The notes under the pieces: model-generated
The model's input: only the letters and a program-made list of their open reading frames with translations
Databases searched by the model: none
Told to the model about the DNA's origin: nothing
Source of the DNA: Strigomonas culicis
Lineage: Eukaryota > Euglenozoa > Kinetoplastea > Trypanosomatida > Trypanosomatidae
Direction: 5' to 3'
Length of the DNA stretch: 29,436 bases
NCBI GenBank assembly: GCA_000482145.1
Contig: AUXH01000199.1
Coordinates: forward strand, 1 to 29,436
Position numbers and translations under genes: made by a program
Shown here: positions 4,080 through 29,212 of the stretch, one piece after another
Numbering within the stretch: position 1 is the stretch's first letter
Layout of the letters: every line of letters begins with the position of its first letter

Positions 4080-4847
4080 ATGGGTTCCACCATTAGTTCT
4101 ATCTCCCTCAAACGCAATGGGGATGTGAAGCCCAAAGAGGATTTCAGCGATGCCGCGGTGAATCCCGACATCGCCTCACAGAAGCACCTGTCGGACCGCT
4201 CCCTCAGCTCCGACCCCCATCACATGGATGCGCCCACGGGGCCTAGCTCGGATGTAGAAGCGGCGGAGCGGCGGCGCGCCGATCAGCACGCGAAGCTGCA
4301 GTCCGAACACGTGAAGAAGCAGAAGCAGCAGCAGGCGGCGGCGGTGAACCTCATCGAGGAGATCTACAACGAGGACTTCACGACGATCGACCACATCCAG
4401 GCCCTCCGCTTCCCTCTCCATGTGACGAACCAGATCAAAAACCTGATCCGCCAGGAGAGCGAGCGGCGCTGCGCGGAGAAGGAGAAGACGATGAGCCGCT
4501 GCCTGCAGGACAAGATGTGGACGACGTGGAAGTGCCAGAAGGAGCGGGACGCCTACTACTACTGTGTTGAGGCGGTGGAGGGGGCCGCGCTGCAGCCGTC
4601 GCGCGAGCGGCTACTTGCCGCGGAGGGGAAGGACGCGGCCGCGGCGGCGGCGACGACCAGTGGTGACGGCGCGGCGGCCGCGGAGGCATCGAACTATCCG
4701 GTGGATGTGCTGACGACGGACCGCTGGAAGTACAACCTTGGTGTGCTGAACGGCGAGATCATCGCGCGCAATAACATTATGCGGAAACTGTGGGCGGATC
4801 ACTACCCAGAGCGTGACCTGCCGCATCCTTGGGTCCGCGATGAATGA
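4080..4847 (+). CDS. Twin CX9C (CHCH-type) protein with N-terminal myristoylation signal, 255 aa
   Basis: Four cysteines sit at 131, 141, 152 and 162 in the pattern C-x9-C-x10-C-x9-C, the signature of small coiled-coil-helix proteins oxidised in the mitochondrial intermembrane space. The protein starts MGSTISS, so Gly2 is a good myristoylation candidate. Myristoylation plus twin CX9C with a 10-residue linker is known in NDUFB7 (complex I) and in MIC19/CHCHD3 (MICOS). The C-x-x-E-R-D-x-Y-Y-Y-C stretch resembles NDUFB7 most, while the E-R-R-C lead-in also recalls CMC1. Residues 60-90 are charged and Gln-rich, likely coiled coil. An Ala-rich linker (about 185-202) separates the CHCH from a distinctive tail (about 213-255) of unknown role, making the protein about twice the length of those families. 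The domain is clear; the family is undecided. The next gene starts 391 bases downstream. Confidence 0.85.
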   Translation: MGSTISSISLKRNGDVKPKEDFSDAAVNPDIASQKHLSDRSLSSDPHHMDAPTGPSSDVEAAERRRADQHAKLQSEHVKKQKQQQAAAVNLIEEIYNEDFTTIDHIQALRFPLHVTNQIKNLIRQESERRCAEKEKTMSRCLQDKMWTTWKCQKERDAYYYCVEAVEGAALQPSRERLLAAEGKDAAAAAATTSGDGAAAAEASNYPVDVLTTDRWKYNLGVLNGEIIARNNIMRKLWADHYPERDLPHPWVRDE

Positions 4848-19237: not shown

Positions 19238-21679
19238 ATGATCTCGAAAAAGTATAAGATCCTGGTGACGGTGCATGCCGCGGCCGACCTCCTCCCGCTG
19301 AACGCCGGCGGCACCTCCAACCCCTTCGTGAAGGTGACGCTGAACACGGACGGCAGTGCGCTGGCCACCGCGCCGCCGCAGAGCTGCGAGACGACGGTGT
19401 GTGAGAAGACGCTGAACCCGTCCTTCGCGGACGCGACCTTTGCCTTTCTCCACGAGGGGCTGCTGCCCGTGCAGCTTGTCTTTCATGTGCTGAACAAGCT
19501 GCCCTACGTGGACGTCGAGGACCTCCTCGGCACCGCGACCGTGACGCTCTTCGACGTCACCGCGCACCGCAACCAGAGCGGCGGCGGCGCGACGTACGAC
19601 AGTGTGGAGGAGGCGAACGCGGCGGCCGGCACGATCGAGAAGGAGCTGGTGCTGACCGCCGAGGGCAACCCGTCCCTCGGGGCGAAGATGCGGCACGGTA
19701 AGAAAGATTGCGGCACGCTTTACATCAACTACCGTGTGGAGGAGGTGCCGGCGACCGCGTCGCCGCCGCTGCAGCCGCAGCCGCAGCAGGTGCCCTCGCC
19801 CTTCCCGCAGCAGGCGCCCGGCCACATGATGGTCGCCGCGCCTGTGTTCGCGGGCGGCAGCAGCACCGGCAGCCGCACGCCGCCGCAGCTGACGAACTCG
19901 CCGCCGCTGAACCCGAACAACACCGTCTTCTCGCTCCCGCAGAACGCGCGGACGCCGCCGTCGCTGTCGCGCGTCACGTCGACGAGCGCGATGCCGATGC
20001 TGGTGCCGCAGGCCGGCGGCGCGCCGCTGCCCGGCAACCTCACGCCGCCGTCGCTGTCGCAGATGGCGCCGCCCACCGCCGTGCCGGTGCCCATCCTGAA
20101 CAACAACACCGTGACCGCGCTGCCGCACGCGGGAGAGGTGGGGCCGGACAGCGCGCCGCACACGCTCAGCGCAAGTGAGCAGCGCTACATGCCGCCGCAG
20201 CTCGTCGCGCCGACGCCGAAGATGCCGACGAGCGCGCCGGTGCTCGGCGGCCCGTCCGACCCCAGCCTGCAGTACGTGAGCTACCCCGTCCCCGGCGCCC
20301 GCACGCCGCCGGCGCCGCCATCGCCGCCGCAGGCCGCGGCGGCCGCCGCCGGCCACATCCTCTTCGCGAACAACAGCACGATGGTCCCCGCGGCGGTGCG
20401 CACGCCGCCGTCGGTGGCGCTGAGCCCGCCGGCGCAGGCCGCCGGCACGCCGCCGACGCTGTACACGAACTACGCCCAGCAGATGGCGGCCGCGGCCTAC
20501 CCGCCAAACATTGTGCACCCGCACCCGCAGAACTGCGCACAGGACCACGTGCAGGCACCCATCGCGAACAACAACACCTGCCTCGACGGCGCCGCGAACC
20601 CGCCGGTGCTGCCGTCCCACGTGAAGCTCATCGCGACGCCGCCGAACATCGTCGGCAACAGCCAGGAGCGGCCGGGCCCCTTTGTGTTCCCCGCCTCGCG
20701 GCCCGGCGCCGCCACGACCAGCAGCAGCGCCACGACGACGACGACGACGGATCGCCACCGCCCGCGTGCGGTGCCGCACTCCGCGTCGAGCAACGGCCTG
20801 CTGGACGTGGCGCAGCCGCCCGTGTCGCCGCCGCTGTCGCAGCAGACAAGCCGTCGCGCGACGCCGTCGAGCCTGATGCCGGCGGCGGCCGCCGGCGGCG
20901 TGCAGAGCCTCTTCCCGGCCGCGCCGCAGACCTTCAACATCCAGGTGGGCGGCGCGGCGCCGCCGCCGACGATGGACCTCACCGCCCACACCCGCTTCAT
21001 CGACCCCAAGCAGTTTTCCTTCTTCGCGAACAACAACGTGACGCACCTCCAGGCCCACGCCCCGGCGGCGGCCGCGCCGGCGGTGCCCTCCGCGGTCGCG
21101 TCGTCGACGCCGCCGTCGCACTACGACGGCGCCTCCGTGGAGCAGCTGTACGCGGACCGCGCCCTGCTGCTGCGCGCGGCGCAGCATTTCCAGGCGCACG
21201 AGGGTCTCTTCCTGGCGCTCAAGCGCAAGGACCCGCTGCTCGTGAACGGCTTCCAGGAGGTGCGCGACCACAGCGGCGCCACGCTGCTCCACATCGCCGC
21301 GGCCCACGGCCAGCTGGCGCTGCTGCAGCTGCTGCTCAGCCCGCTGCAGCCGCAGGCGGCCACGTCCCACCCCTTCGCCTACCCCCTCGTGAACCTCTGC
21401 TCCCTCGTGACGGCGAACGGCGGCAACACGGTCCTACACGTCGCCGCGCTGCACGGCCAGCGACAGGTGTGCGAGTGGCTGCGGTACCACTACACAGCGC
21501 CCGTCACCGCCAGCGACGCCGCCGCTGAGGCGGACAGGCGCAGGGCGGACGCCGCGAGGAGCAATACGGAGGTCACGAACTGCCTGTGGCTTGTGCGGAA
21601 CAAGAACAGCAAGCTCGCCGCGGAGCTCGCGATGGAGGCCGGCTTCGAGGACATCTCACGGCTGCTGCTGCCGGCGTAG
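19238..21679 (+). CDS. C2 domain - TPP-rich linker - ankyrin repeat protein, 813 aa
   Basis: Residues 1-170 read as a C2 domain: K-Y-K-I-L-V-T-V-H-A-A-A-D-L-L, then G-G-T-S-N-P-F-V-K-V, then K-T-L-N-P-S-F and E-D-L-L-G-T-A. C2 domains bind membranes or proteins. At the first calcium loop the usual Asp pair is replaced by Asn (L-N-A-G-G-T-S-N-P) and later loop Asps are incomplete, so calcium-independent binding is likely. Residues 171-640 are a Pro/Ala/Ser/Thr-rich linker with at least eight T-P-P motifs (for example Thr214, 239, 269, 356, 389), potential proline-directed kinase or WW/SH3-type sites. Residues about 678-700 and 727-750 are ankyrin repeats (A-T-L-L-H-I-A-A-A-H-G and N-T-V-L-H-V-A-A-L-H-G), and a weaker third ends the protein. 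The combination suggests a membrane-linked adaptor; the cellular role is not known. A 747-residue antisense frame is a codon-bias shadow. Confidence 0.85.
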   Translation: MISKKYKILVTVHAAADLLPLNAGGTSNPFVKVTLNTDGSALATAPPQSCETTVCEKTLNPSFADATFAFLHEGLLPVQLVFHVLNKLPYVDVEDLLGTATVTLFDVTAHRNQSGGGATYDSVEEANAAAGTIEKELVLTAEGNPSLGAKMRHGKKDCGTLYINYRVEEVPATASPPLQPQPQQVPSPFPQQAPGHMMVAAPVFAGGSSTGSRTPPQLTNSPPLNPNNTVFSLPQNARTPPSLSRVTSTSAMPMLVPQAGGAPLPGNLTPPSLSQMAPPTAVPVPILNNNTVTALPHAGEVGPDSAPHTLSASEQRYMPPQLVAPTPKMPTSAPVLGGPSDPSLQYVSYPVPGARTPPAPPSPPQAAAAAAGHILFANNSTMVPAAVRTPPSVALSPPAQAAGTPPTLYTNYAQQMAAAAYPPNIVHPHPQNCAQDHVQAPIANNNTCLDGAANPPVLPSHVKLIATPPNIVGNSQERPGPFVFPASRPGAATTSSSATTTTTTDRHRPRAVPHSASSNGLLDVAQPPVSPPLSQQTSRRATPSSLMPAAAAGGVQSLFPAAPQTFNIQVGGAAPPPTMDLTAHTRFIDPKQFSFFANNNVTHLQAHAPAAAAPAVPSAVASSTPPSHYDGASVEQLYADRALLLRAAQHFQAHEGLFLALKRKDPLLVNGFQEVRDHSGATLLHIAAAHGQLALLQLLLSPLQPQAATSHPFAYPLVNLCSLVTANGGNTVLHVAALHGQRQVCEWLRYHYTAPVTASDAAAEADRRRADAARSNTEVTNCLWLVRNKNSKLAAELAMEAGFEDISRLLLPA

Positions 21680-23700: not shown

Positions 23701-23861
23701 ATGCCCGTCGATACGCCACCGAAGAAGTATCACAGGCAGACCACCGCGGAGGAGGCGGACGGCGGCCGGCGGCGGCGGCGGCACAGCGCCGCGCCGTACG
23801 CGGACCTGGAGGAAGATATGGTCGCCCGCAAGCGGCGGCGGCGGCGGTCCCTGACGGCGAC

Positions 23862-23897
<36 letters not shown>

Positions 23898-26800
23898 CGG
23901 CAACGTGATCACGACCATCAATGAGCGCGGGGAGGTTGTAGTGAAGCGCAAGCGTGGGCGGCCGCCGAAGAACCGCAGCCTGACCGGCCACGGCGAGGCG
24001 GGCGGCGGCCCGGCGGTCCCGCAGACGCCGCGACCGTCGGAGGACCACACGAAGCGCACAAAGCGCCCCTACCGACGGTCGGACGCGCAGCCCCCCGCGC
24101 CAGCCCCCCCTACCACGACCGCGAATGCAAGTGGTGGGAAGGACGGCATGAAGAGCTTTTCGCAGGTGTCCTCCGCCTCCTCCTCCACCCTCAAGGCGCA
24201 ACCACTCGAGAACACGAGCACCGTTGCGACGAGTAGCAACAATACGACGAATCTCTCCATCGCACAGAGCGGCGATGGGGTGGGGGATGGAGACGGCGCC
24301 GGCGCCGGGGGCGCGGGCGGCAGGGAGGCGTCCTTGTTCACCATGTTTCATAAGAGCGGCGGGCCGAGCTTTCTCGCGACCCCGCCACTCGCCAGGCTGG
24401 ACTCCGACGACAGGACCTCGCAGGCGGAGGACGCGAACGTGGCAAGCCCGACGATCGAGGGCCGAAACACAACCCCCACCAACCCGAGTGGGGTGTACTC
24501 CGTGGAGGAGGAGATACTGAAAAACCGACTGGAGAAAGAACGGAAAGAAATTGAGAACGCGGAGCGGCTGCGCGTTGAACAGGAAAAGATGAAGCGGAGC
24601 GTCATTCTCACGTTTAATGACTTCGTCTTTGAGAACGATCACAGCAGCAGAGCGTCAGCCACGGCGACGCCCTCTCCCCCCCCTAGTACCACAACGGGTG
24701 TGCTGAAGGCAGGTGAGCGAACCTACGTGGAGCAACAGCTCACAGACCACTTCCGGCGGCTCTGCCAGGCCCAGCCGAGTGCGCACAGCCAGGCGGTTCT
24801 GCAAGACGCAGAGGAGCGTTTTTTGAGTGAGCATCAAACGCACTCCTTCCTGCTGGCCTCGCCGGAGAGCTACGTCGCGAGTCCGTTCATCTCCTTCTAC
24901 GGCCCCCTGCAGCGCCGCGCGTCTCGCGCCGCTCCCTCCCGCTCCCCACCCTCTGTGTCGCCAACCCAGGAGAGCATTAAGTTTCGAAAGCAGCGGAGTG
25001 TTCTGCTGCCTCTGCTCGTGGGCAGCTGCGTCACGCTCGTCGCCCCGGAGAGCAAGGAGAAGAGCCATCTGTGGACCGTATACCTGCGCGGGCTGCACAA
25101 CGGCCGCTACACGTGCGGCGCCGACAGCGCCGCGGAGCGCACCGACTATCTCTCGCTCTTCATCGACAAGGTTGTCTTTGTGCTGGACAAAAGCTTCAGC
25201 CCCTCCGTGCGCACCGTCACCGCGGCCCCTTTTGAGGTGACGGAGCGCGGCTGGGGCGAATTCCCCATCTTCATCTATGTGTACCTGAAGAAGGAATTCG
25301 CGGACTTGGTGACGCCGGCCGGGGCGAACCGCGAGGAGGTGCAGCTCAACAAGTTCTTCTCCGGCGTCACGCGCGGCATCCCCTACACACAGCAGAGAGT
25401 GTTCTACCAACACGTGACGGGCGCCACGAGCACGGCGGCGGCGCCGATGGAGGCCTTCCCGCCGCCGTCGTCGCCGTCGCTGCCGCCGCCGCCGCGACTC
25501 GGGGAGGGTCTGTTCATCGACACATCCGGCGCGAACGAGCCGAACGGCACGCCGGGTAGTGTATCCTCGCCGACCGGCGGGGTGGCGATGGGGGACCCAT
25601 CCTCCCCGACCACCGTGCTGCGCCAGTACCACCAGAGCAGTGGGACGACGACCGGGGCGGCGAGCGCGCCGAACCATGCGGCCGGCGGCGCGCCCATGCC
25701 GATCAAGGGCAGCACGAACATCAACGAGATGAACAACGACGCGTCCTGCAAGACCATCCTGTACAAGAGCCCCTTCCTGAATCCCTTCTGGCTCGGCTGT
25801 ACGCACCATCATCCGGCGGACGGCGGCGCGCGCCGGCGCCGGCGGCGCCGCCCGGTGCCAAACGTGTGCTCCAGCAGTGACAGCGGCAGCGAGCCGGGGG
25901 ACGGCCCGTCGCCGGGCAGCGACGCAGACGACGCGGAAGAAGTCGAGAGCGTGTGGGAGACCGCCGGCCGCGCGACGCCGCCGCTGCCGCCGATCACCGC
26001 GAGTGGCAGTGCGTGCCACGTGGTCGCGTTTCAGCACCTGCTGCGCTTCTCTCACCGCACGAAGGCACCGCCGGCGATCCCGCCCTCGCTGCCGAACATC
26101 AAGCGCAACAAGGAGAGCGGCACGGAGCAGATGGGCTACACGATTGTGGAGGGGCCCGTCGTGACGGAGCACTACGAGGAGATGGTGTTGGAGGTGCGCG
26201 CGCCGCCGGCGGCCAGGGCCCCACGCGTGAACAAGCGCTCGCCGCCGGGCAGGTCGCGTAAAGAAAAGAGTGAGGCGGTGAAGCTGGAGGACGGACCGCA
26301 TACGCGCGTGAAACAGGAGGAAGATGACGGCACTGGCGAGGAGCCTGCGCCTCCGCAGCGAGACGATGCGCACGCGGCCTATGTGGTGGTGGAGCAGGAG
26401 GCGGAGCAGCGGCTGTTCAGCGCCGTCGCGCAGCTGGAGCGGTTCCTCCGCTTTTACGTGTACGAGCAGCAGAAAATCATGCTCACGATGCTGTCGCAGA
26501 AGGTGGCGCCCGAGAAGGCGCAGCACCCGCATCCGCATGGCGCCTGGCCGGTGAGCCACTGCGCACATGGCCAACCCCTCTTCACAAAGGAGGAGCGGTC
26601 GCTTCTGGAAACGTACTATCATCACTTTCTGTTTTCTTCATCCTCATCGGCCACAAGCGAACATCGGGGCGGCGTCTCGTGCTTTCAGCAGATTTACGAA
26701 AACCACGACGTTTTCTTCTTCGACTTTTACAACAGCATCGCATACCTCAGCAGTGTCACCGCCACTGCGCGCGCGGAGGGCTGGCTGACCGACGCGCTCG

Positions 26801-27612
26801 ACGTCAACCGCGCCTACTTATTCGACCGCCGCCACGGTGCGAGGCGCAGACGTCGGGGCATGTGGGACGCCCCCGACGACGCGGACGGGGATGAGATCCA
26901 TCCGACGCCCCCTCCTCCTCATAATCACAAACCTGCTAGTGGTTCCATACTGCAGAGCGAGGTGTCAACGCTGCCGACCACCGATCTGTTCCAATCCTCC
27001 TTCCCGCCGCACCGCACGAATCAGAACGACTGCCACGTGCTCACCCGCGCCGAGTTTGACTGCATCGGTCACTTGGTGTCCTTCCCGTCGCACAAGAGCC
27101 TGAACACCGTGTTTCAGAGAGCCGTCGTGCCCGTCGCGCTGCTGCTGACCAAAACCGTGTCACTTTTGCTAAGCGCCCTCCGCAACGCGGACCAGCAGCC
27201 GAGTGAGGCGCAGCCGGTGTTCTACTACGCGGTGCATCCGGCCATCGCGGCGGTGGGGGATGCGAATCCACACGCCGCCGCGCTGCTGAGTAGGGAGGAG
27301 CACAACGTGGATGACGAGGACGACGATGACGTGGAGGAGCCGGAGGGGAGCGCCACCAGCCCTGGTGGCCATGCGCCGCTCTCCGCTGTGGGACTGGGCA
27401 CCCCTCATGCGAGGCAAAATCTGTTTGGGGAGCATCGATTTTATTTTCTCAACGGCGTACTGCCCAACGGGGAGAGGCGGAGTGACAGCAAAGGGCACTT
27501 CTCCGATTTGAGCAAATTGGAAAAGATGAAAAACGATTTGATGGCAGAAATTTTGAGTATGCGACGCGAGATCACGAAGCGCGAGAGTGCTCTGACCTTA
27601 CAAACCATTTAA
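23701..27612 (+). CDS. AT-hook and split YEATS-domain chromatin protein, 1303 aa
   Basis: YEATS domains read acetylated or crotonylated histone lysines in complexes such as NuA4, SWR1 and TFIID. The core spans about 430-535: L-W-T-V-Y-L-R-G (457-464), K-V-V-F-V-L-D-K-S-F and P-F-E-V-T-E-R-G-W-G-E-F (the G-W-G at 517-519), as in Yaf9/GAS41. The reader pocket keeps the S-F pair and the aromatic Trp, but the His found in AF9 (H-E-S-F) is Asp here. The fold then breaks off; its last parts reappear at 773-783 (H-V-V-A-F-Q-H-L-L-R-F) and 818-828 (G-P-V-V-T-E-H-Y-E-E-M), so about 240 residues are inserted. The insert has an Arg-rich nuclear-signal-like run. An AT-hook core R-G-R-P-P-K lies at 85-90, poly-Pro at about 56-66, coiled coil at about 265-300 and again at the extreme C-terminus, as in Yaf9. 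Two V-K-x-E sites near 860-875 are possible SUMO sites. Confidence 0.85.
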
Positions 27613-27922
27613 CAAAACAACAACAACAACAACAACAACAACATATTCTTTTTTTTTTTGTATTGCTTTCTGCCTCTTTTCATTTTGCATTTGCGTACAG
27701 GAAATGATGGTAACACGCCCCCCTTTTTTTTTGCTATTCTTCTCTGTCCACGCTTCTTCCCTTCTCTCGAAAAATTAAAAAAAGAAAAAGAACAAAAATA
27801 CCTCAATTGCTCGTTTATTCTGCAAAGATAAAACAACAACAGGGACTGTCACAACCTAATACTATACATAAAAAAAAGGAAGCACAAATCACCTATAACG
27901 AAAAAAAAAAGAAGAAGTAAAT
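27613..27922. other. Intergenic region between genes 7 and 8, with (CAA)n
   Basis: Begins with a (CAA)8 microsatellite at 27618-27642 immediately after the stop codon. Two pyrimidine tracts follow (27646-27698 and 27718-27770), and then A-rich sequence up to the ATG. No gene is present. Confidence 0.6.
27646..27700 (+). promoter_or_regulatory. Candidate polypyrimidine tract and spliced-leader acceptor, gene 8
   Basis: A T/C-rich run ends in ACAG with the AG at 27699-27700. A second tract at 27718-27770 with an AG at 27783-27784 is an equally good candidate, giving 5' UTRs of about 222 or 138 bases. Confidence 0.45.
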
Positions 27923-29212
27923 ATGTTCAACAATAAGGACATCACATTGAACGATATCCTGGCGGCGCGCCAGGTGCTCAAGGGCTACATTTTTGAAACA
28001 CCGACCATCGAGAGTCACTCACTGGAGTACAAGACGGATCACGACCACGTGGTGCTCAAGTGCGAGAACCTGCAGCGCGCGGGCAGCTACCACATCCGCG
28101 GCATGCTGAACAAGGTCATCAAGACGAAGGAAAAGGACCTCAGCATCAATAACTTCGTCGTGGCGTCGACCGGCAACACCGGCGCGGCGCTGGCGCTCGC
28201 GGCGCACTACTTCCAGGCGAGCGCACACGTCGTGCTGCCCTCCACCATCAAGGAGATCATCCCGCGCAGCATCAAGCACTACAAAGGGTCGGTCTATGTG
28301 TGCGAGCCGAACGTGGCGGCCCGCGATAAGGTGATCACGGATATCCTGTCCACCTACCAGAACCGCAAGATGACCGTGCGGAACAAGAACGAGTTTCAGA
28401 AGGCGGTGCTGGTGCACCCGTACGATGACCGCCACATCATCACCGGTTACGCGACGCTCGGCGTCGAGTTCATGATGCAGACAAAGCAAACGCTGGACTG
28501 CCTCATCGTGCCGGTCTGCGGCGGCGCGCTGCTCGCCGGTGTCGCGCTCGGTGCGAAGAAGATGAAGCCCGGCCTCGTCGTCATCGCGGCAGAGCTTGAG
28601 ACGCAGTTCCAGGACCTCAGCATCCTCATGAACAACAACAGCAGCGACAGCGCCACAATCGCGAAGGCGGCGGCGGCTGCGGCGACGGCGGCGGCGGCGG
28701 CTGCGGCTGCGGCCGTGGACGGCAAAGAGAAGGGACCCATCACGATGAACGACCTGTTCAACCCCGATTACTTCCTCTTCAAGCACGCAGACCCGACGGG
28801 CGTGACCAACAAGGCGAAGGCGGAGGCGGAGAAGCAGCAGCAGCAGGCGGCGGCGCCGCAGAAGGAGCAGCCTCCGGCGGTGGTGCAGCCGCCCACCCCT
28901 AGCGCCGCGGCCGAGCTGTCGCGCACGCCGGTGTCGGAGACGCTCTCGACGCCCATCTCCGGCAGCACGAAGGCCATCATCGATCAGATGGTGCACGGTG
29001 TCGTGAAGGTGAGCGAACAGCAGCTCCAGTACGCCTTCCGATACGTCTACGAGCGCTGCAAGCTCGTGGTAGACATCCACGCGGCCACCGCCGTCGCGGC
29101 GCTGCTCTTTGGCACGAAGCACCTGCAGGACTACGATGAGGTCGGCATTCTGCTCTCGGGCGGCAACGTCGATCTGTCGGACGTGCCGCGCCTCGCATCG
29201 GCAAGGCTGTAA
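27923..29212 (+). CDS. Serine racemase / threonine dehydratase-fold protein lacking the PLP lysine (probable pseudoenzyme), 429 aa
   Basis: The fold-type II PLP enzyme layout is clear: K-C-E-N-L-Q-R-A-G-S-Y-x-I-R-G (46-60), A-S-T-G-N-T-G-A-A-L-A-L-A-A (81-94), a H-P-Y-D-D-x-x-I-I-T-G segment (165-175), P-V-C-G-G-A-L-L-A-G (197-206) and a C-terminal L-S-G-G-N-V-D-L (411-418). In the family the lysine in S-F-K-x-R-G forms the Schiff base with PLP (Lys56 in human serine racemase); here that position is His57 (codon CAC). The second catalytic Ser (Ser84 there) is Thr83, and the four-glycine phosphate loop is reduced to C-G-G-A. Residues about 240-345, which in serine racemase include metal-binding and lid sequence, are replaced by poly-Ala, Gln/Lys- and Pro-rich sequence. 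The E-P-A-G-A block is D-I-H-A-A. Dehydratase or racemase chemistry is therefore unlikely; a regulatory or structural role is inferred. Confidence 0.85.
   Translation: MFNNKDITLNDILAARQVLKGYIFETPTIESHSLEYKTDHDHVVLKCENLQRAGSYHIRGMLNKVIKTKEKDLSINNFVVASTGNTGAALALAAHYFQASAHVVLPSTIKEIIPRSIKHYKGSVYVCEPNVAARDKVITDILSTYQNRKMTVRNKNEFQKAVLVHPYDDRHIITGYATLGVEFMMQTKQTLDCLIVPVCGGALLAGVALGAKKMKPGLVVIAAELETQFQDLSILMNNNSSDSATIAKAAAAAATAAAAAAAAAVDGKEKGPITMNDLFNPDYFLFKHADPTGVTNKAKAEAEKQQQQAAAPQKEQPPAVVQPPTPSAAAELSRTPVSETLSTPISGSTKAIIDQMVHGVVKVSEQQLQYAFRYVYERCKLVVDIHAATAVAALLFGTKHLQDYDEVGILLSGGNVDLSDVPRLASARL

Follow-up and report, generated by a model that had tools for sequence, protein, structure and literature searches.

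A Strigomonas culicis PLP fold-type II protein without the Schiff-base lysine: a candidate trypanosomatid pseudoenzyme family with a predicted glycosomal signal

What does a protein with the scaffold of serine racemase and threonine dehydratase do when the lysine that should form the Schiff base with its cofactor is a histidine? This question is raised by an open reading frame (ORF) of Strigomonas culicis in contig AUXH01000199.1 (assembly GCA_000482145.1). The whole stretch of 29,436 nucleotides that was analysed, read on the forward strand, is referred to here as the window.

27923..29212, + strand: the whole ORF, encoding a PLP fold-type II (PALP) protein of 429 amino acids without the Schiff-base lysine; frame open
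27718..27768, + strand: polypyrimidine tracts upstream of the ORF, listed with tract and AG positions; putative trans-splice acceptor region

The scaffold had been named in the initial annotation, which was made from the letters of the sequence, and database searches confirmed it. The window protein matched PALP (Pfam PF00291, 5e-44, above the gathering score), as did all 26 listed members of the family described below. Its closest solved relatives by sequence are the Dictyostelium and mammalian serine racemases, followed by plant serine racemase and TdcB, and structure prediction gave the serine racemase/threonine dehydratase fold both for the window protein and for an asparagine-bearing relative from Trypanosoma conorhini. 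Of the NCBIfam models, NF045641 (BhcB, beta-hydroxyaspartate dehydratase) scored best with the window protein and with the five of its 25 relatives that were scanned, but the scores (169.9 bits for the window protein and 185-210 bits for the five relatives) all lie under the curated cut-off of 550, and the catalytic lysine is absent.

The Schiff-base lysine position across the family

To define the family, the window protein was grouped with 25 close relatives from protein searches, giving at least 26 members among the matches listed, which were the best 120 of 2605, 7978 and 6666 matches. One of the searches started from an alignment that included four canonical rows, and most of its matches were canonical. 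The 261 remaining homologues used for comparison are likewise listed top matches rather than a random sample, and they are largely prokaryotic where named. An organism is given for 10 of the 25 relatives, and all 10 are trypanosomatids: Leishmania tarentolae (a cluster of 19 sequences), Novymonas, Porcisia, two Leptomonas, Angomonas deanei, two Phytomonas, T. grayi and T. conorhini, the last being a close relative of T. cruzi.

28091..28093, + strand: codon CAC for His57, which stands where the Schiff-base lysine would be; Lys is found here in 261 of 261 listed others and in 0 of 26 family members

His57 sits within KCENLQRAGSYHIRG of the window protein, which reads GSYHIRG where the aligned racemase chains read GSFKMRG or GSFKIRG; functional serine racemases and threonine dehydratases carry their lysine in G-S/A-F-K-x-R-G. 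In an alignment of 287 proteins, the lysine column of the 26 listed family members holds His in 22, Asn in two, Gln in one and Cys in one, while Lys occupies it in every one of the other 261. An alignment-free motif check returned identical residue counts for the 26, and for the others 258 Lys plus three proteins in which the motif was not found. The claim that the Schiff-base lysine has become His57 thus held by both routes. Orthologues with a lysine at this position were looked for among the listed relatives, and none was found (0/26). Nor was a non-lysine form found among prokaryotic genome loci, where the best 80 of 590 all carried Lys (80/80). The histidine itself fared less well as an essential feature, since the four other members have Asn, Gln or Cys. 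Both listed Trypanosoma proteins belong to these four, and that of T. conorhini combines Asn at this position with a C-terminal PTS1. A second lysine, at position 113, is invariant in the 261 listed others and has also been lost in the family.

In a tree that added 13 of the 261 others to serve as outgroup, the 26 family members fell on one side of a branch with support 100/100; its root is a midpoint placed for drawing only, and the sequences include no eukaryotic serine racemase. The window protein pairs with that of Angomonas at 96/94 in this tree of 26 plus 13, both on long branches. A subclade of seven (P0014-P0020) has features of its own: six have GGGG-G/S phosphate loops, the metal-site Glu is Val, and the C-termini of six read SNL, SKL, SKI or AKL.

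The initial annotation had also proposed, from the open frame and GC-rich codons, that the gene is maintained. The frame is intact and the GC3 of the ORF is 0.89, within the 0.74-0.95 spanned by seven further large ORFs in the window; a non-lysine residue fixed across the family, together with the intact frame, argues for a maintained protein rather than an error. The annotation was right about the missing lysine, and the observation proved larger in scope: the loss is a feature of the whole family, and in most listed members it is accompanied by a PTS1 that had gone unremarked there.

The remodelled pocket and the lid segment

Fifty-one columns are at least 97% uniform in the 261 listed others. 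Of these, the family keeps 27 (retained in at least 24 of the 26 members) and another 11 in part; the remaining 13 have been lost, seven of them within the GSFKxRGA, TIADG and EP motifs. Near the lysine, the preceding Phe (Tyr in 25/26) and an Ala four residues downstream have gone; elsewhere, the losses comprise the Glu and Pro of the EPS motif, two TIADG columns and positions 68, 77, 78, 176 and 267. An EPS-like motif was found, independently of the alignment, in 0 of 26 family members and in 245 of the 261 listed others. Kept in the family are Lys46, Arg59-Gly60, Ser82, Asn85, Gly200-Gly201, Gly206 and GGN, with Asn85, Gly201 and Asn415 present in all 26 and GGN in at least 25.

28163..28189, + strand: asparagine loop ASTGNTGAA, residues 81-89; Asn85 in 26/26, the next canonical His lost in 25/26
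28514..28531, + strand: phosphate (tetraglycine) loop V-C-G-G-A-L, residues 198-203; Gly200 in 25/26, Gly201 in 26/26, the fourth Gly being Ala in 16/26
29072..29074, + strand: Asp384 in place of the EPS-motif Glu; Asp in 26/26 family members, Glu in 261/261 listed others
29156..29176, + strand: SGGNVDL, residues 412-418; Ser412 present as Ser in 21/26
28610..28942, + strand: low-complexity insert, residues 230-340, where the canonical rows have the TIADG lid motif

By their known roles in serine racemase, we take Asn85 to contact O3' of PLP, the tetraglycine loop to bind phosphate, Ser412 to lie at the ring nitrogen of PLP, and Glu224 to be a metal-site residue. Glu224 is kept in the window protein and counts 15 of 26 in the family. 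The canonical Asp of column 263, which lies in a poorly alignable stretch, is found in 13 of the 26 and is Ala in the window protein. The loss of the loop His is not diagnostic by itself, as this residue is Phe in 15 of the 261 listed others. Thr83, the C-G-G-A loop and SGGNVD are present as originally described. Thr83 is unexceptional as an altered feature, the family having Thr in 13 members, Ser in nine, Val in three and Ala in one. In T. conorhini the pocket contacts are more degraded, with a SEGAL loop and AGGN. Taken together, the alignment points to a family pocket that is rebuilt in a shared way and not simply worn down, with that of T. conorhini apparently worn further. Relative to serine racemase and TdcB, the family thus shares sequence family, fold and, in at least 25 of 26 members, Asn85, the GG of the phosphate loop and GGN; it differs in having no Schiff-base lysine, Asp for Glu at 384, no TIADG and, in 17 of 26, a PTS1.

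Loss of the lid had been attributed to replacement by low-complexity sequence. The insert is there, but the lid motif is missing family-wide, and only the length of the insert is special to the window protein. A TIADG-like motif was found by the alignment-free check in 0 of 26 family members, as opposed to 230 of the 261 listed others. In the window protein this segment, residues 221-356, has a length of 136; it measures 50-99 in the 25 relatives and 48-49 in 258 of the 261. Much of the insert was modelled with low confidence (pLDDT <50 at residues 230-243, 264-301 and 310-331). Inside the former lid, a GGC run at 28666-28713 (16 copies, 82% match) falls in the stretch coding for a polyalanine tract; the run may differ in length from strain to strain.

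Lysine occurs in at least 20 of the 26 members in seven columns. Four of these, at window positions 17, 69, 215 and 269, are uncommon as lysine in the others (5, 2, 12 and 20 of 261, respectively), and the window protein itself has no Lys at 17 and 269. Lys69 (28127-28129) is a family-specific lysine, present in 25 of 26 members. As replacements for the Schiff-base lysine, all seven columns were rejected, none lying in a pocket motif; this was judged by motif, not by distance.

C-terminal signal and genome context

29201..29209, + strand: C-terminal Ala-Arg-Leu (ARL), PTS1 by pattern; strict PTS1 in 17/26 family members and 0/261 listed others

A looser PTS1 pattern matches 23 of 26 family members and five of the 261 listed others, while the residue make-up would give a PTS1 by chance in approximately 0.27% of proteins. 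Three members match neither pattern: that of Angomonas, the C-terminus of which seems aberrant as predicted, and the two from Phytomonas (SAL). As the others are largely prokaryotic where named, absence of PTS1 among them is expected; given this, and the kinship among the relatives, what the contrast chiefly tells is that this lineage acquired the signal. A PTS1 string predicts location imperfectly (PMC7237986). In a review of the T. cruzi glycosome, "TDase, threonine dehydratase-like" appears among the proteins of the organelle (PMC7005584), but the main text of the primary proteome paper does not contain the word "dehydratase" (PMC7082770), and the main texts of PMC9512073, PMC7237986 and PMC7082770 make no mention of this protein. 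From its PTS1 pattern, the window protein is probably targeted to the glycosome.

The genome from which the window comes (17.7 Mb in 670 contigs) was searched with PF00291, and three PALP genes were found: that of the window, a cystathionine-beta-synthase (CBS)-like gene scoring 467.8 bits against the cystathionine beta-synthase model, just under the cut-off of 510.25, and a third that passes the cysteine synthase A cut-off. The latter two encode SVKDR, with the lysine kept, and neither ends in a PTS1. Queries with a canonical homologue (P0231) and a family member (P0005) returned the same three genes only. An iron-sulphur serine dehydratase (PF03313) was not found in the genome, nor was a canonical serine/threonine dehydratase or serine racemase gene found in this assembly, which may be incomplete. 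Blastocrithidia nonstop has been reported to have no serine-threonine dehydratase gene (PMC10874023), and the protein may thus be dispensable in at least one lineage.

Pseudoenzyme, unusual enzyme or activator

We consider it rather likely that the window protein is a copy of a glycosome-directed trypanosomatid pseudoenzyme family, derived from a serine racemase/threonine dehydratase-type ancestor, which binds a ligand and does not act as a dehydratase; that it is not the enzyme of its annotation is probable. According to established PLP chemistry, a protein without the Schiff-base lysine would have neither the usual internal aldimine nor the lysine-driven proton step, and ordinary Ser/Thr dehydration would be expected to be lost or very slow. 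Asn85 and the phosphate-loop GG are retained, as is Ser412 in 21 of 26 members, which suggests that the pocket may still hold a phosphorylated ligand, possibly PLP or PMP bound non-covalently. In the glycosome, the protein might then be a subunit with a binding or regulatory role that responds to a ligand, acting as a homodimer or with some partner. A catalytic residue lost from a maintained and conserved protein is what a fold-type II pseudoenzyme would be expected to display, and that is what was found. Pseudoenzymes derived from PLP enzymes are already known as a kind. TSB-like of eudicots is an example within fold type II, having given up catalysis but not binding, although the two key changes named for it are a Glu and an Asp rather than the Schiff-base lysine, and its partner, TSA, is known (PMC12727527).

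Several observations count against this reading: the His in 22 of 26 members suggests more constraint than free drift would leave, even though the relatives are not independent; the degraded contacts in T. conorhini speak, on alignment, against a conserved PLP site there; PTS1 prediction is imperfect, and three of 26 members match neither pattern; B. nonstop is reported to lack the gene; and activity has been published for a T. cruzi protein. As T. conorhini has Asn together with PTS1 and is close kin of T. cruzi, the T. cruzi gene TcCLB.506825.70 is likely an orthologue of the family. Ser/Thr dehydratase activity of the recombinant TcCLB.506825.70 protein was reported in 2025; it had been made in E. 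coli BL21 Codon-Plus, with PLP added, and purified over one nickel column (PMC11934319). PMC12153322 merely repeats the T. cruzi claim in the passage concerned. The terms "empty vector", "boiled" and "heat-inactivated" are absent from the main text of PMC11934319, although controls of this sort may still have been run; of the 25 places where "control" occurs, the 12 examined concern other experiments and not the recombinant enzyme. If TcCLB.506825.70 is an orthologue, then either the protein works without the lysine, in which case other members may be active too, or the measured activity came from a contaminant.

ColD and E1 belong to fold type I, the aminotransferase fold, whereas the window family is of fold type II. 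They bear on an unlikely alternative, an active enzyme without the Schiff-base lysine in which His57 would act as the acid/base on non-covalent PLP or PMP. In the nucleotide-sugar 3-dehydratases ColD, E1 and SpnQ, which are aminotransferase relatives working with PMP on sugars, the same Lys-to-His swap has occurred on a PLP scaffold, and the His is catalytic (PMC8987622). The His in 22 of 26 members, the several cofactor contacts kept and the T. cruzi report (PMC11934319) fit such chemistry. A ColD/E1-type enzyme would be expected to have its catalytic His throughout the family, but four of 26 members have Asn, Gln or Cys, including both listed Trypanosoma, so that His is not required family-wide; in addition, the TIADG lid has gone, and so has the loop His in 25 of 26.

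Also unlikely is a prozyme-like activator, a dead subunit whose pairing with an active enzyme turns that enzyme on. Trypanosomatids offer precedents in two polyamine-pathway enzymes, where the AdoMetDC prozyme and DHSp are likewise maintained, catalytically dead relatives (PMC3663545; PMC5201418; PMC6221367), and TSB-like shows that a fold-type II pseudoenzyme can be an activator in plants (PMC12727527). Those trypanosomatid proteins have an active paralogue as partner, but none was found for the window family in the genome. The canonical paralogue envisaged as a partner in the initial annotation did not emerge, with only the CBS-like and cysteine-synthase-type genes found besides that of the window in this assembly, both without PTS1; an unrelated partner would still be compatible with this absence.

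It is distinctly unlikely, though it would explain the T. cruzi activity, that this is a glycosomal fold-type II family with lysine-less PLP/PMP chemistry that relies on His in most members and on another arrangement in Trypanosoma. It is very unlikely that the protein is an ordinary Ser/Thr dehydratase that relies on another lysine. This is how the database names (dehydratase, ammonia-lyase or racemase) and the reported activity (PMC11934319) would have it, and Lys69, found in 25 of 26 members and two of the 261 listed others, is the family-specific candidate. In the model, Lys69 lies 12 residues along helix 57-71 and would therefore be far from the pocket, and the T. cruzi protein came from E. 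coli BL21 through one nickel column (PMC11934319). A sequencing or assembly error or a decaying pseudogene, to which the long low-complexity insert and the long branch shared with Angomonas might point, is scarcely credible and was rejected, given the open frame, the non-lysine residue in all 26 members from several sources, and the retention, in at least 24 of 26, of 27 of the 51 columns that hardly vary in the canonical proteins.

The pseudoenzyme reading matters for annotation, as the source names call the family serine-threonine dehydratase, threonine ammonia-lyase or serine racemase. If no internal aldimine can form, a metabolic step has been misassigned across the family, members of which occur in parasites of medical importance, and the T. 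cruzi protein with published activity (PMC11934319) should be checked for its lysine. What appears to be new here is that a fold-type II family has lost its Schiff-base lysine throughout and also bears a glycosomal signal; no remark on the missing lysine was found in the literature searched, subscription papers lying mostly outside that search. If the family proves active, it would represent a lysine-independent fold-type II PLP enzyme, and we know of no natural one.

Other ORFs of the window were noted in passing. The neighbouring 1303-aa ORF at 23701-27612 (+) has a YEATS domain and ends 310 bases before the start of the 27923 ORF. An 813-aa ORF at 19238-21679 (+) carries an N-terminal C2 domain and C-terminal ankyrin repeats, and a 255-aa ORF at 4080-4847 (+) matches NDUFB7 below threshold (21.7 vs 26 bits) and is possibly a complex I subunit.
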